Shown: positions 696 through 48,936 of the stretch, piece after piece
Layout: every line of letters begins with the position of its first letter
How positions within the stretch are numbered: position 1 is the stretch's first letter
Assembly (NCBI GenBank): GCA_031272515.1
Contig: JAISTR010000034.1
Span: 1 to 64,000, forward strand
DNA from: Erysipelotrichaceae bacterium
Lineage (GTDB): Bacteria > Bacillota_I > Bacilli_A > Erysipelotrichales > Erysipelotrichaceae
Direction: 5' to 3'
Length of the DNA: 64,000 nucleotides
Program-made: the position numbers and the translations under genes
Notes under the pieces: model-generated
Seen by the model: only the letters and a program-made list of their open reading frames with translations
Databases searched by the model: none
Told to the model about the DNA's origin: nothing

Positions 696-1415
696 ATGCC
701 GCTATTAAAACCATGGTTAAGCAAAGATCATGCGAAAGCTTTGGAGGCCGTGTCCAAGGCAGATAAACAAGTCGTCTTTTCAGAAGTGTTGCTTCAGGGA
801 GAACGATACAGCGAAGCCTGGAAACTGGCTCTGCAGCGTACAGAGCAGCAGGATGTTCTCGAGCAGATTGCAGCCGACAATACCATAAAGAGCTACTGGC
901 GCGAAGAAGCCGCAAAGAAAATGATGGACCAAAGCAAAGCCCAGTCAATACTGGAATCGATTGCCCATAATCCACAAGCCTCAAACAGTGATCGGGTATC
1001 CGCTGCCAAACTGCTTAATAGTCCCGAAACTGCCCAGGAAATACTGGCAGACCTGGTAATCCCGAAAACACCTGAAGAAAAAGGCTACAGCTATTATGCA
1101 TTGGGGGTTTTAGCTGATTTGTATCCTGACTCCAAAGCCTTCAAAGACATCATCCATAAGCTGGGGGAAGAATTGAAAGCCACCAAATCAGAAGAAATCG
1201 CGAACCTGCTGTTAAAGACTTACCAACAAACCAAGCAGGACAGTGCGAAAGCGGAGATTGCGGCATATAACGGCACCAGCTACACCCGGATTCAATCCCA
1301 TACCGAAAGCGAAACTGTGGAGGACCCCAACTGCAACTCCGTCGATGATATCTGCTCGCCAACCACAACATTCACCTCATGGGATGAAGAAGTGGAGGAA
1401 GTGTTTCAGGTTTAA
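696..1415 (+). CDS. Helical-repeat protein with Cys-containing C-terminal tail, putative radical SAM substrate A
   Basis: 239 aa, unrecognised family. The ATG at 696 follows AAGGGAGGG; an in-frame GTG at 669 lies upstream of that site and is rejected. Residues 1-10 contain the KPWLSK motif shared with the next gene. Residues 11-185 are alternating amphipathic helices resembling HEAT/TPR-like repeats. The last 50 residues change character: YNG at 191-193, a second Tyr at 196, an acidic stretch, Cys213 and Cys220 (CX6C) and a terminal FQV. Cys213-Asn-Ser-Val-Asp217 is a CX3D pattern, which in ranthipeptides marks Cys-to-Asp thioether sites. There is no signal peptide. Its gene is 26 nt upstream of substrate B and in the same operon as the radical SAM enzyme, so a modified tail on a folded carrier is inferred. 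Confidence 0.7.
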   Translation: MPLLKPWLSKDHAKALEAVSKADKQVVFSEVLLQGERYSEAWKLALQRTEQQDVLEQIAADNTIKSYWREEAAKKMMDQSKAQSILESIAHNPQASNSDRVSAAKLLNSPETAQEILADLVIPKTPEEKGYSYYALGVLADLYPDSKAFKDIIHKLGEELKATKSEEIANLLLKTYQQTKQDSAKAEIAAYNGTSYTRIQSHTESETVEDPNCNSVDDICSPTTTFTSWDEEVEEVFQV

Positions 1416-1441
1416 CAGTAAACAAACAGGAGGATGTTATT

Positions 1442-2497
1442 ATGTCATTCTTCAAACCATGGTTAAGCAAAAACCCAGATCGGGCGATAGATGCACTCCG
1501 CAAAAACAATAAGCCCAAGAATTTTGTTGAGGTATTGAGCCATCCGGATACCCCGGATAAAGTCTTTGACTATGCACTGAAGTATACAGATGATTTTTCG
1601 CGAACACTGTATATTCAGGAAAAATCGCGTCCTTTGTCCAGACGGCTGCAGGCAATTAAGCATATCAGTAAAGAGAGCCAGCGGCTGGATGTCTTATTGC
1701 TGTTTATCATGCAAGGAAACGAAGAAGAGCGGCAAAAGGCTTTGCCACTTCTTTTGGGAAATTGTACGGATATAGATAAAATCAAGGAACTCCATTATCC
1801 TGATGAAACATTGATTGCCTATGCGAACTCTACAGGCAATTCAAAAGCTACGAGAATTTTGGCCACTATGTGTATCAATGAGCAGGACAAAGCTTTGGAA
1901 ATACTCAAGAATTTCGCCACAAATGGTACTGTAGAAGATCGGACAGCTGCTTTGGCTGCCTTGGAGTCAAAACCAAACCAAGAAGGTTTTCTGGCAGAAA
2001 TTGTTCACTCCTTAATTCAAGCCCTTCAGAAAGAACATGAATACGATTCTGCTTCCATCCTGTATCGGTTCTATCAAAACACTAAAAATTCAAAGCTCAA
2101 AGATGAAATAGCAGTACATCTGCCCAAGATTCTGATTAAGCTTTCCAAGAACAACAGTGAATCCAAGCAAAAAGAAGCGCTGTTGGAACTTTTGGAAATG
2201 CCGGATCAAAGGGAAGCGATTCTGGAAATCATTCGCCTTCATGGAACACAGCTTAAAACGAATCATAGCACTGATGCCGCGCAGCTTTTATATTGGCTTA
2301 ATAAAACTGCCAAAGATGAAGAAATCAGAAAGGCAATCTCCCTCTATAACGGCGCTATCTATAATCTTAAGACAATAAAAAGAGAAATCGAAGTAGAGGA
2401 AGTCACGGATTGCTATGCACCGGAGAACGCTTGCGGCGGTAATGTAATTCGCAAAGAAATCATTACAGAAACCACAAATGATACGTTTCACGTGTAA
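1442..2497 (+). CDS. Helical-repeat protein with Cys-containing C-terminal tail, putative radical SAM substrate B
   Basis: 351 aa, related in design to the preceding protein but longer. AGGAGG lies upstream of the ATG at 1442. It begins with FKPWLSKNPDRAI, matching the first protein, followed by about 285 residues of short alpha-helical repeats (ALEILKNFA, ALLELLEM, AILEIIRL). The tail repeats the pattern of protein A: YNG at 302-304, Tyr307, an acidic stretch, Cys324, Cys331 (CX6C), 20 further residues and a terminal FHV. Cys324-Tyr-Ala-Pro-Glu328 is CX3E. Tyr302-to-Cys324 spacing is 22, exactly as in protein A. Cys108 and Cys144 in the body have no counterpart. The radical SAM gene starts 20 nt downstream. 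Function is unknown; substrate status is inference from conserved tail geometry and operon context. Confidence 0.7.
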   Translation: MSFFKPWLSKNPDRAIDALRKNNKPKNFVEVLSHPDTPDKVFDYALKYTDDFSRTLYIQEKSRPLSRRLQAIKHISKESQRLDVLLLFIMQGNEEERQKALPLLLGNCTDIDKIKELHYPDETLIAYANSTGNSKATRILATMCINEQDKALEILKNFATNGTVEDRTAALAALESKPNQEGFLAEIVHSLIQALQKEHEYDSASILYRFYQNTKNSKLKDEIAVHLPKILIKLSKNNSESKQKEALLELLEMPDQREAILEIIRLHGTQLKTNHSTDAAQLLYWLNKTAKDEEIRKAISLYNGAIYNLKTIKREIEVEEVTDCYAPENACGGNVIRKEIITETTNDTFHV

Positions 2498-2517
2498 TCA
2501 TATGGGAGCTGATCAAC

Positions 2518-4638
2518 ATGTTTGAACCTGGTTTGGCAACCCTGATACTGGATAAAAATCAAATCATGGATGAGCGAGTGCTAAGCGCGACCAGTGAGTT
2601 TTTATCGTGCTTATGGTTAAACAATACCGGAACAATCCGGTTTGGCGGCGAAGACCCGCTTTCTGCCGGCTTTGCGTGGTACAATCATGCTTTAATAAAA
2701 CTCTCGCAAGCCCTCTGCCACCGGACTGTTTTCACCCTGCAAGGACCGCTGCATCATTTGGATGACAGTTTCATTTCCTTGTTGGCAAGATATCATGTAC
2801 AAATTTCAGCTGTACTTTCAGTAAATCAAGATGCTCTTGATAAACCCGATGCCGCATTTCAAGCATCCTTAGCTGGCATACACCAGCTCAAAGACGCTGG
2901 ATTGCCGGTATTCCCGGTTGTCATAATAGAGAAAAACGCACTTTCGCGCGTTTCTGAAATCATTGCGCTTTTTGCGAAGGAAGAAGTCCCCTTTACCCTG
3001 CGCACAGCGCTGGATAAAGCGAACCATCAGGAAAGCCTCGAATTGCATCAAGAAGTCTTAGGGTACTTTAAAGAAACTCCTGTCCCCTGCCATATTATCG
3101 AGAGCGAGGCTTTGGTGAAAGGTGTCTTTCACCAAAGACCAGCGACTTGTCTTTATACAAACTGCCTGGGCAATTACCTGGCGATTGATTTTGAGGGAAA
3201 CCTCTACCCCTGTCACCGCTTCGCCAGTCTACCGCAATACCGTGTTGGAACAATTTGGGATAACCCGCAGACAATAGAACAAAATCCGGTTTATCAAGAA
3301 CTTCTGAAACAACAAAATACCAAGGACGCCAACTGTGAAGCCTGCACGCACTTTGGCTACTGTCATGGCGGCTGTTTGTTTGACTATTTGACAACACCAA
3401 AAGAGAAACACCCCTATACTGCCTGCATGAAAGAACAAGCCGGTCTTTCCCTGAAGACGCTTTTTTCCGGCATCCGTCAATCGCTTGCCAAAGAAGAATC
3501 CTCTGTCCTTCTTAAAGAGCACAAGCCTACCCCTTTCCTTTCCATTTCGAAGGACCGTCCTCATCCCTATGATGAATACCTGAATCTGAAACGGGTATTG
3601 AAAGCCTACCAGTGGGGTCAAAACGGTGCACCAGGCAAAGCCTTTGCCTATCGCCAGCATGCCCAGCAGGTCTATTTGAACATCACCAACAACTGTCCGC
3701 TGCGCTGTGCGCACTGCAGTGTCAGTGCCTCCTCCGGGCACAAGGATATGCCATTAAAGACCGCAATGAAAATTATCACAGATGCCTATGACCTGGGCTT
3801 TTTGGAGGTGTCCTTAAACGGTGGTGAACCCTTCGCCTATAAATGGTTTAAAGAGTTACTGCAAAAAATGAAAGCCCAAAAGAAACCCGGATTGCGCTTT
3901 GCCTTATACACCAACCTCTATTTGGATTTTGATTGGGAACTCTCTGATTTGTTATTAAGTGCTTTGGACCGCATCTGCGTGAGCATAGATGGGGATGAAG
4001 CAGAACACGATAAGCGCCGGGGCAAAGGCAGCTATGTGAAGACTACTGCCAATATCACAAAGCTTCTCACACACCGGCAACAACTGAAGTCCGACTGTGC
4101 CATCTGGGTAAGGGCGACCCTGACCAAAGAGCAGACAGAGAACCATCTCGATCAAATCATCAAAGACAACATGACAAAGCTGGGGGTGGACCATACCGAA
4201 ATCACCCGGGTTTTGCCCATCGGAAGGGCCAAAACCCTGGAGCCTTTCGTATTATCCCGCCGTAAACCTGTGACCCGGCTGTCGTTTCAAACCCCCTTCT
4301 ATCCGCGCTATTCCTGCAGTCTGGGCGCCAATCTGCACATTACCCCAGACGCAGACATCTATCCCTGCTGGGCATATGCAGAGGATTCAAACCCCATTGG
4401 TAATGCCAACACCGGACTTGCCTCTGTCTATGACTATCTCTGGGAAGAAGGCAGTGCTTTTTATAGTGTTTCCCAAAACCCCAAGTGCAAGGATTGTGAA
4501 GTGAAATATCTCTGCGGGGGCATCTGTTACGGACATCGCAACAGCGACTGTACAGTCGTGAAACAGTATTACCTGGAGATGGTCGATTTGGCTGGAAAGC
4601 TGCTGGAAGCGGAGTATGGTGTGAATGATGTTTCCTGA
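2518..4638 (+). CDS. Tandem radical SAM/SPASM protein (N-terminal half lacks the SAM cluster motif)
   Basis: 706 aa with two radical SAM/SPASM-like halves. The C-terminal half has the cluster motif CPLRCAHC (Cys393, 397, 400), the SAM-binding GGEP (435-438) and a SPASM Cys set (600, 617, 657, 660, 666, 670, 678), as in peptide-modifying enzymes. The N-terminal half keeps a barrel-like pattern with GGEDPL (43-48) and a SPASM-like Cys set (211, 216, 232, 273, 276, 282, 286, 303), but no CX3CX2C where it should start. It is thus probably a catalytically dead radical SAM domain that still binds auxiliary clusters. GGGAG lies 9 nt before the ATG. The position directly after two tail-bearing proteins suggests it modifies them in the cytoplasm. 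No separate RRE domain, protease or exporter gene is adjacent. A quinone-cofactor or enzyme-activating role is an alternative. Confidence 0.85.
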   Translation: MFEPGLATLILDKNQIMDERVLSATSEFLSCLWLNNTGTIRFGGEDPLSAGFAWYNHALIKLSQALCHRTVFTLQGPLHHLDDSFISLLARYHVQISAVLSVNQDALDKPDAAFQASLAGIHQLKDAGLPVFPVVIIEKNALSRVSEIIALFAKEEVPFTLRTALDKANHQESLELHQEVLGYFKETPVPCHIIESEALVKGVFHQRPATCLYTNCLGNYLAIDFEGNLYPCHRFASLPQYRVGTIWDNPQTIEQNPVYQELLKQQNTKDANCEACTHFGYCHGGCLFDYLTTPKEKHPYTACMKEQAGLSLKTLFSGIRQSLAKEESSVLLKEHKPTPFLSISKDRPHPYDEYLNLKRVLKAYQWGQNGAPGKAFAYRQHAQQVYLNITNNCPLRCAHCSVSASSGHKDMPLKTAMKIITDAYDLGFLEVSLNGGEPFAYKWFKELLQKMKAQKKPGLRFALYTNLYLDFDWELSDLLLSALDRICVSIDGDEAEHDKRRGKGSYVKTTANITKLLTHRQQLKSDCAIWVRATLTKEQTENHLDQIIKDNMTKLGVDHTEITRVLPIGRAKTLEPFVLSRRKPVTRLSFQTPFYPRYSCSLGANLHITPDADIYPCWAYAEDSNPIGNANTGLASVYDYLWEEGSAFYSVSQNPKCKDCEVKYLCGGICYGHRNSDCTVVKQYYLEMVDLAGKLLEAEYGVNDVS

Positions 4639-4723: not shown

Positions 4724-5692
4724 ATGAACAAATTTATCAAAACAAACAAAAAGAAAGTGCTGATTGTTGTTTCTTGTCTAACAGTGGTTGCCTTGGTGAC
4801 CAGTGTGTCTTTTTATTACATAAACCAAAGCCAGGCAGCAGCGAAGGCAGAGCAAATCGCAGCACTGCGGCAATCGGAAGAAACAAACCTGAACATCACG
4901 TTTGTGAAATCCATTCCGGATCTTGAGTATGGTTCGAGTTTCGACAGCGAAAGGCTGGTGCTCTCCACAAATGGCGTAAAGGTCTCTGCAGATCCTAAAG
5001 AGATTGATACTTCAACTTTGGGAGAGAAAGTAATCCTCTTCACGGTACAAAGCCGATACTTCAGTGATATTACCAAGACCTTTGAAGTGAAACTCAATGT
5101 AGTGGATACAACGCCGCCGGAGATAAGCGGCGCTAAGGATATCACTATTAAGCAGGACGGGGATTTGGATCTGTGGGAAGGAATTGCAGCTATTGATAAC
5201 TATGATGGGGATGTGACTGAGAATATTGTTACCGAGGGAGAATACAATACTTCAAAAGTCGGTGTGTATAACATCACTTACAAAGTCACTGATTCATCGG
5301 GAAATGAAACCGCTGCAGCCATTACTTTAACCGTAGAGAAGAAGAATTCTCCTACCCCAAGTCCTAGTCCAAACAAAACCGGAGACACTGGAACAGGTAC
5401 GGGAAGTACAGGGACAAGTGATAGTGGGACGAATTCCGGGACAGACAGTGGAAGCACTGGAACTGGTAGTTCTAGCCAAGCATGCCCGGGAGGATACCGT
5501 CCTGATTTACCATGTGACTACATCATGCAAGCGGACTACTACTTATTCATTTTTCCGACGCTTGCAGCCTGTGATGCTTATGGGGATGATTGGAGCCATG
5601 CACCAGAGGAGGCAATAAGTTATACTTGCCAGGAGATGCATCATAACGACACAACCTATGCTGGTTGGGGCTTTCAATACAACTACCATTAA
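4724..5692 (+). CDS. Membrane-anchored surface protein with DUF5011 Ig-like domain and Cys-containing C-terminal module
   Basis: 322 aa. An N-terminal KTNKKK stretch and a hydrophobic segment (about 12-32) form a signal anchor. Residues about 45-125 are a beta-rich region. Residues about 128-205 are a typical DUF5011 Ig-like domain (DTTPPEISG start, DNYDGDVT, VTDSSGN). A low-complexity Pro/Ser then Gly/Thr/Ser linker spans about 208-252. The last 70 residues hold Cys254, 264, 283 and 302 and many aromatics (WGFQYNYH end), probably a disulfide-stabilised binding module. No LPXTG is present. It follows the radical SAM gene by 85 bp in the same direction. A functional link is possible but its own -10 element argues for partial independence. 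Ligand unknown. Confidence 0.75.
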   Translation: MNKFIKTNKKKVLIVVSCLTVVALVTSVSFYYINQSQAAAKAEQIAALRQSEETNLNITFVKSIPDLEYGSSFDSERLVLSTNGVKVSADPKEIDTSTLGEKVILFTVQSRYFSDITKTFEVKLNVVDTTPPEISGAKDITIKQDGDLDLWEGIAAIDNYDGDVTENIVTEGEYNTSKVGVYNITYKVTDSSGNETAAAITLTVEKKNSPTPSPSPNKTGDTGTGTGSTGTSDSGTNSGTDSGSTGTGSSSQACPGGYRPDLPCDYIMQADYYLFIFPTLAACDAYGDDWSHAPEEAISYTCQEMHHNDTTYAGWGFQYNYH

Positions 5693-5717: not shown

Positions 5718-5840
5718 ATGAGAAAGAGTATTATCAAGCTGGCACTTGTGCTGGCTTTTTTATTGCAGTTAACTGCACATTTTACGATACCAGTAAAAGC
5801 AGATAATGAGATGGCAATACTCAATGGATTGCTGAATTGA
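5718..5840 (+). CDS. 40-residue secreted peptide or truncated signal-peptide gene
   Basis: Too short for a standard gene screen. AAAGGGGGC lies 8-9 nt before the ATG at 5718. The product starts MRKSIIK, then a hydrophobic core (LALVLAFLLQL), a plausible signal-peptidase site after PVKA (residue 28) and only 12 further residues (DNEMAILNGLLN) before TGA. It could be a small exported peptide released by signal cleavage, or the 5' stub of a larger exported protein whose remainder is lost. It lies 25 bp after the surface-protein gene and probably shares its transcript. Confidence 0.5.
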   Translation: MRKSIIKLALVLAFLLQLTAHFTIPVKADNEMAILNGLLN

Positions 5841-28698: not shown

Positions 28699-28722
28699 GG
28701 GGGTGCCTCCGGCTAAATAAAA

Positions 28723-28795
28723 GGTACACACAAACAGGGATTTCTAAGGTTGCTTCCTTCCGGACCTAGCCTGGTTCAAATATGTTTGTTGTACC
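28723..28795 (-). ncRNA. ffs: Signal recognition particle RNA, short (4.5S-like) form
   Basis: The minus strand begins GGTACAACAAACATA and ends complementary TGTGTGTACC. At the tip it holds the universally conserved SRP54/Ffh-binding elements: the symmetric loop CAGG...AGCA and the GGAA tetraloop in TCCGGAAGGA. The hairpin is about 73 nt without an Alu domain, unlike the long B. subtilis form but like Mollicutes and Erysipelotrichia. It lies between serS and tadA. Confidence 0.9.
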
Positions 28796-28878
28796 TCTGT
28801 CATTATACTAAAGATTAGCAGGCTCCGCAATTGCGGGCTGTTTGTCCTGTACTGTCGCCTTGAGTTTTGCCTCGGGAA

Positions 28879-48859: not shown

Positions 48860-48936
48860 CGGGGTGTAGCTCAGCTTGGTAGAGCGCTTGGTTCGGGATC
48901 AAGAGGCCGCATGTTCAAATCCTGTCACCCCGACCA
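48860..48936 (+). tRNA. tRNA-Pro (anticodon CGG)
   Basis: 77 nt with encoded CCA. Acceptor CGGGGTG/CACCCCG, D-arm GCTCAGCTTGGTAGAGC, anticodon stem CTTGG/TCAAG around loop TTCGGGA (CGG at its centre), and T-loop TTCAAAT. The T-stem GCATG/CCTGT contains one T-C mismatch where relatives have a G-C pair. It stands alone between ade and a YhhN gene, with its own promoter and terminator. CGG reads only CCG codons, so another proline tRNA must exist. Confidence 0.93.

Follow-up and report, generated by a model that had tools for sequence, protein, structure and literature searches.

Short peptides are the best-known substrates of radical SAM/SPASM enzymes. In the window analysed here (the whole stretch of 64,000 nucleotides from an Erysipelotrichaceae bacterium), two genes encoding larger proteins, P1 and P2, are followed by a gene for a tandem radical SAM/SPASM-type enzyme, which raises the question of whether folded repeat proteins could be the substrates of such an enzyme and, if so, what is done to them.

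Gene organization of the locus

The three genes are located on the same strand and span 696-4638 with gaps of 26 and 20 nt, and each of them is preceded by a purine-rich ribosome-binding sequence. The three genes, the lengths of 239 and 351 aa and the 20 bp between P2 and the enzyme, all given by an earlier reading made from the letters alone (the sequence-only reading), were borne out by the ORFs. The single promoter proposed in that reading is plausible from the gene spacing, but promoter-like sites occurred at chance level (11 found vs 8.5 expected). The features of the three genes are as follows.

696..1415, + strand: P1, ORF of 239 aa, helical-repeat protein, predicted substrate
708..725, + strand: KPWLSK start motif of P1, with related starts in homologues
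1266..1412, + strand: P1 C-terminal tail from YNG, with Cys213 (CNSVD) and Cys220, 0 HxD triplets
1442..2497, + strand: P2, ORF of 351 aa, HEAT-like alpha-solenoid by model, predicted substrate
1454..1471, + strand: KPWLSK start motif of P2, seen in the sequence
2345..2494, + strand: P2 C-terminal tail from YNG, predicted disordered, with Cys324 (CYAPE) and Cys331, 0 HxD triplets
2518..4638, + strand: enzyme, tandem radical SAM/SPASM-type, 706 aa, predicted maturase (Pfam and full-length homologues)

Elsewhere in the window, a gene 85 nt past the enzyme (4724-5692, + strand) encodes a signal-anchor-like protein with a Bact_surface_Ig-like domain (Pfam, E 9e-15) and a Cys-rich C-terminus, and it is followed by a short signal-peptide-like ORF with an early stop (5718-5840, + strand), possibly a gene remnant. 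A Small SRP RNA (28708-28805, - strand) and a tRNA (48860-48933, + strand) were also observed.

Homology and predicted fold of P1 and P2

Both proteins open with M-x-x-[LF]-KPWLSK-[DN], KPWLSK beginning at residue 5, so the common start described in the sequence-only reading is present in both sequences. The different bodies claimed there turned out to be homologous instead, aligning over 230 aa (BLASTP E 2e-9), so that the two share an origin and are distinguished by their length and repeat content. The common tail was recovered as a BLASTP segment running from the last repeat through YNG to both Cys (E 9e-6), and the tails from YNG scored 33 when aligned, where shuffled sequences averaged 13.1 (p = 0.0175), with the two Cys at aligned positions. 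One copy of Cys-x3-Asp/Glu is found in each of the two tails, and the count of the triplet His-x-Asp (H-x-D) is zero in both.

The model of P2 is a 20-helix alpha-solenoid (mean pLDDT 76) with a tail, residues 310-351, at pLDDT < 50, and the nearest PDB folds to the model were armadillo/HEAT-type or designed solenoids, with low TM-scores. No Pfam family, HEAT included, matched P1 or P2 above cut-off, so that the term 'HEAT-like' rests for these two proteins on the model and on the relatives.

Degenerate first half of the enzyme

The enzyme is divided into two halves, each with a barrel and a SPASM domain.

2518..3132, + strand: N-terminal barrel, predicted catalytically dead (alignment with homologues; TIGR04083 match of 134 bits)
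3133..3447, + strand: N-terminal SPASM domain, Cys ligands retained
3673..4302, + strand: C-terminal radical SAM barrel with CPLRCAHC (3694-3717), GGEP and SIDG, predicted active
4303..4617, + strand: C-terminal SPASM domain (Pfam and motif alignment)

Pfam detected a single Radical_SAM domain in the window enzyme, located in its second half, and two stretches of SPASM. In the alignment with relatives, the first half has undergone an in-frame loss of about 16 residues including CxxxCxxC, and GGEP, SLDG and RGxG are altered or lost while the SPASM Cys are retained; all motifs are present in the second half. CxxxCxxC and the SPASM Cys were present in the C-half of the window enzyme and in both halves of the relatives, and the window N-half failed the cluster motif. 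Judged by these motifs, the window enzyme is a tandem radical SAM by architecture only: the tandem arrangement named in the sequence-only reading stands, but not as two complete catalytic halves. The degenerate half was absent from that reading.

The identity of the window barrels to the three nearest homologues was 28-31% for the N-barrel vs 41-45% for the C-barrel; among the relatives, N-barrel identity was equal to or higher than C-barrel identity in 14 of 15 pairs. The first half of the window enzyme would survive as a pseudo-radical SAM/SPASM domain, perhaps with a function in substrate binding or electron transfer. The predicted structure of the whole enzyme (mean pLDDT 45.7) was too poor to use.

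Homologous loci in Bacteroidales

Six homologous enzymes were found in five of the sampled genomes, all in the order Bacteroidales. A genome contig scan gave full-length homologues in two Tannerellaceae MAGs (35-36% identity, E 8e-143 and 3e-142), and further enzymes were found around them in G699, as a second copy in G682, and in G707, giving 4/125 positive genomes in all. The enzyme of G981 was found in a later genome search, and G981 alone was positive among 140 genomes of its family. The successful contig scan used an alignment with self-written synthetic guide rows, which steered the short patterns that were sought; several designs of these rows had first been tried on a viral set. The rows served no other purpose, and the matches were confirmed against the real enzyme. 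The searches covered samples of genomes, in which MAGs may be incomplete.

The third match of the contig scan, L054, was set aside with 22% identity and two separate single radical SAM genes. Sampling at family, class and phylum level around the window genome yielded no second enzyme. Plasmids gave no enzyme match and phages one 25% partial match only. In viral scans, whether run with the enzyme, P1/P2 or guided alignments, the sole confirmed matches were generic radical SAM ones, and a genome scan that started from KPWLSK gave no confirmed match. A reading as a defence system was dropped, the PADLOC matches being remote viperin-like scores.

In all six homologous loci, neighbouring proteins with a tryptophan-containing, KPWLSK-like start (e.g., FKPKWKHS, FKPAWQSK, FARWNSK) and a variable tail were observed. 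The putative substrates are helical-repeat proteins of 156-530 aa. Among the homologues tested with Pfam HEAT, both G981 proteins and U77_2, an unlinked G682 protein, scored above cut-off, G707_1 scored under cut-off and the second protein of L052 had no match; the remaining HEAT-like proteins were assigned by eye from start, spacing and repeat pattern, and genes in L053 and L081 are broken or cut by contig ends. Because homologous enzymes adjoin helical-repeat proteins with the same type of start and a variable tail, repeat-protein substrates with a modified tail, as first proposed from the sequence, are the best reading of the locus.

Several other features were seen in these genomes. In both MAGs the enzyme is followed by another radical SAM gene (L052, 8265-9545; L053, 3381-4661), and the L052 copy has a B12-binding match under cut-off. 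DUF6261 genes lie directly upstream of the enzyme (L081, 6525-7175) or of unlinked substrate-type genes (L078, 1955-2872). HEAT-like substrate-type gene pairs were also found in L077 (4554-6894) and L078 (3017-5495), with the enzyme elsewhere in the same genome and tails without HxD.

In the sequence-only reading, the product may stay attached and work inside the cell. Alternatively, the HEAT-like protein could be an oversized leader whose tail is cut off as a core peptide and exported, giving a small cross-linked peptide like those of other RiPPs. Variable tails on more conserved N-terminal regions do resemble core and leader, and in G707 (L083, 1370-7142, - strand) genes for an ABC ATPase, two MacB-like permeases, HlyD and an outer-membrane efflux protein of the TolC type follow the enzyme on the same strand, in a separate or continuing transcription unit. 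The absence of an adjacent exporter, noted earlier for the window, is thus not supported as a general rule, though no exporter was seen in the other loci read. Against release of the tail, the G707 exporter genes begin about 190 nt past the enzyme, no protease gene was seen in the loci read, no cleavage site was identified, and the extreme C-terminus of many tails looks conserved (F-x-V/I-P types). A released peptide is considered rather unlikely, although it is the strongest of the competing explanations.

Enrichment of H-x-D triplets in the tails

The last 60 residues of 18 substrate-type proteins were taken as tails. H-x-D occurred 38 times in these tails compared with a shuffle mean of 6.1 (sd 2.4), and other His-Asp offsets gave 3-7, so that spacing 2 was the sole enriched His-Asp spacing. 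With close duplicates removed, 31 triplets were observed vs 4.9 expected, and H-x-D topped all residue pairs and spacings (z 13.2, next 6.1). These counts are partly post hoc, since His-Ser-Asp and His-Thr-Asp had first been spotted by eye in some tails; as an independent check, the two G981 tails, fetched after the triplet was noticed, hold four triplets each. At least two H-x-D were found in ten tails, all from relatives. At least three within 60 aa were found in 9/527 ORFs (the longest non-overlapping ORFs of the loci read and the window), all nine being HEAT-like substrate-type proteins; since the loci were chosen by enzyme similarity, the proportion should not be read as a genome-wide one.

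Eight substrate-type proteins, P1 and P2 among them, are without H-x-D, and six of the eight come from genomes with both enzyme halves intact. Some HEAT-like proteins from such genomes are also without a tail Cys; the tails thus do not form a uniform substrate. Cys-x3-acidic over all tails was counted 8 times vs 3.0 (p 0.006 uncorrected, as one of seven offsets), a signal that is weak after allowing for the seven. Repeat-protein homologues with neither the radical SAM gene nor the tail had been taken in the sequence-only reading to speak against it. In a limited run, remote HEAT relatives in genomes without an enzyme match lacked the His-x-Asp tail where the C-terminus was readable; they are generic HEAT-repeat matches, and the closest is cut by a contig end, so that this result weighs neither for nor against the proposal.

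His, Asp and Cys commonly serve as metal ligands and H-x-D sits beside Cys in several tails, so the tail residues might bind metal, with the enzyme modifying only some of them or a different partner. The His-Asp enrichment is however confined to i, i+2, the spacing of three-residue cyclophanes, and among the 527 ORFs clustered triplets were seen solely in proteins beside the tandem enzyme; metal binding is judged improbable. Still less probable is that the HEAT-like proteins serve as scaffolds or recognition partners, with another molecule as the true substrate. Protein binding is the usual role of HEAT solenoids, and no separate leader-recognition domain was found among the Pfam matches of the enzyme, but the repeated motif occurs in the tails adjoining the enzyme in six of six homologous loci and no other small gene was seen to recur beside the enzyme in the loci read.

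Family scores of the two halves

The halves of the relatives were scored separately, after the idea that the first half acts on H-x-D had been noted. For the first halves TIGR04083 ranked first, followed by DynA, sulfatase maturase, AmcB, PapB and YhhB, with OscB and FxsB also in the mixed list; for the second halves StsB and PapB ranked first. TIGR04083 (cut-off 300) gave 134 for the window N-half, 256-266 for the relatives and 305.5 for the relative on G682 contig 74, and the window C-half scored 74.9 bits with the PapB model, below its cut-off of 340. The first halves score well with sulfatase maturase and PapB too, and therefore the family rank does not fix the reaction.

G1253 also carries a single-domain radical SAM/SPASM gene (L107, 5988-7399), which is related to both DynA and TIGR04083 and adjoins a 74-aa peptide; this peptide ends EYSDYGNIYKYAFF, with Tyr-x-Asp near its terminus.

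Proposed mechanism

The best explanation, with a probability of about one half, is RiPP-like tail cross-linking on folded HEAT-like proteins with the labour divided between the fused enzyme halves. The disordered C-terminal tails of P1 and P2 would be the substrates of the adjacent enzyme, and in the wider family the enzyme would be a fusion of two radical SAM/SPASM maturases working on one tail. The first half probably joins His to the beta-carbon of Asp two residues on, giving His-x-Asp three-residue cyclophanes, and the second half probably forms a thioether between Cys and an acidic residue close by, frequently at +4. In the window, the catalytic motifs of the first half and the His-x-Asp triplets are both gone and the Cys remains; the Cys reaction alone is predicted there, from Cys213 to Asp217 in P1 and from Cys324 to Glu328 in P2. 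The gene architecture, the homologous loci, the enrichment of triplets and the loss of motifs are observed directly; modification of the tails as such, both types of link, the split of tasks between the halves, and the fate and function of the mature proteins are inferred.

In the tree of the C-halves, the window enzyme grouped with G699, G682a and G683, apart from G682b, G707 and G981 (100/98); the N-SPASM tree was too weak for use. Since H-x-D tails and intact first halves occur among relatives on both sides of the C-half tree, the two losses in the window are most plausibly derived. They coincide once, in a single lineage, which suggests, without proof, that the first half acts on H-x-D.

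A more specific version is put forward tentatively and is less probable than the general explanation: the mature products may be intact cellular HEAT-like solenoids in which a loop is locked by two radical-made links, a His-Asp cyclophane and a Cys thioether, made by one fused enzyme, with lineages shedding one reaction and its motif together. A fused double maturase working on the tails of folded repeat proteins would in any case widen the substrate range of radical SAM/SPASM enzymes, and the window would provide a natural example in which one catalytic half has disappeared along with the motif it presumably targets, which makes the roles of the halves testable.

Comparison with known systems

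No paper linking HEAT proteins to an enzyme of this kind turned up in the open-access literature searched, and the system is provisionally regarded as undescribed before. The co-mentions of HEAT repeats and radical SAM that were examined were unrelated; in a Clostridium case the two genes lie in different loci.

TIGR04083 (rSAM_pep_methan) is the best model for the first half and covers one half only. The first halves of the relatives also score with several models of triceptide or three-residue cyclophane formers (AmcB, YhhB, OscB, FxsB, XyeB; HaaB, YxdB). According to the part of PMC11002830 consulted, known His and Tyr cyclophane formers join Tyr to Asp, or His to Ala/Arg, at i+2, and the i, i+2 His/Asp tail motif of the relatives fits this His and Tyr chemistry. 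None of the cases in that part of PMC11002830 joins His to Asp, and the first half of the window enzyme is degenerate. This triceptide-type motif is present in ten tails of relatives and, at 0 HxD, missing from the window tails. The systems differ further in that the putative substrates here are helical-repeat proteins of the sizes given above and that two maturases are fused.

QhpD, which acts on a protein subunit, is compared here together with the ranthipeptide and sactipeptide maturases (PapB, SCIFF/CteB, StsB). StsB and PapB are the top-scoring models for the second halves of the relatives, at scores far below curated cut-offs. PapB has the spacing CX3D/E (cf. PMC9413430). The tail Cys with an acidic residue at +4 matches this spacing, as a weak spacing signal, but unlike those of ranthipeptides and sactipeptides the precursors here are not short peptides.

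Large, folded leader regions are described for the proteusins and nif11-type RiPP precursors in the part of PMC10858898 consulted. Neither P1 nor P2 matched a leader family of that kind, and the fold here, as modelled for P2, is a HEAT-like solenoid; if the proposed tail modification is true, a whole solenoid can act as leader.
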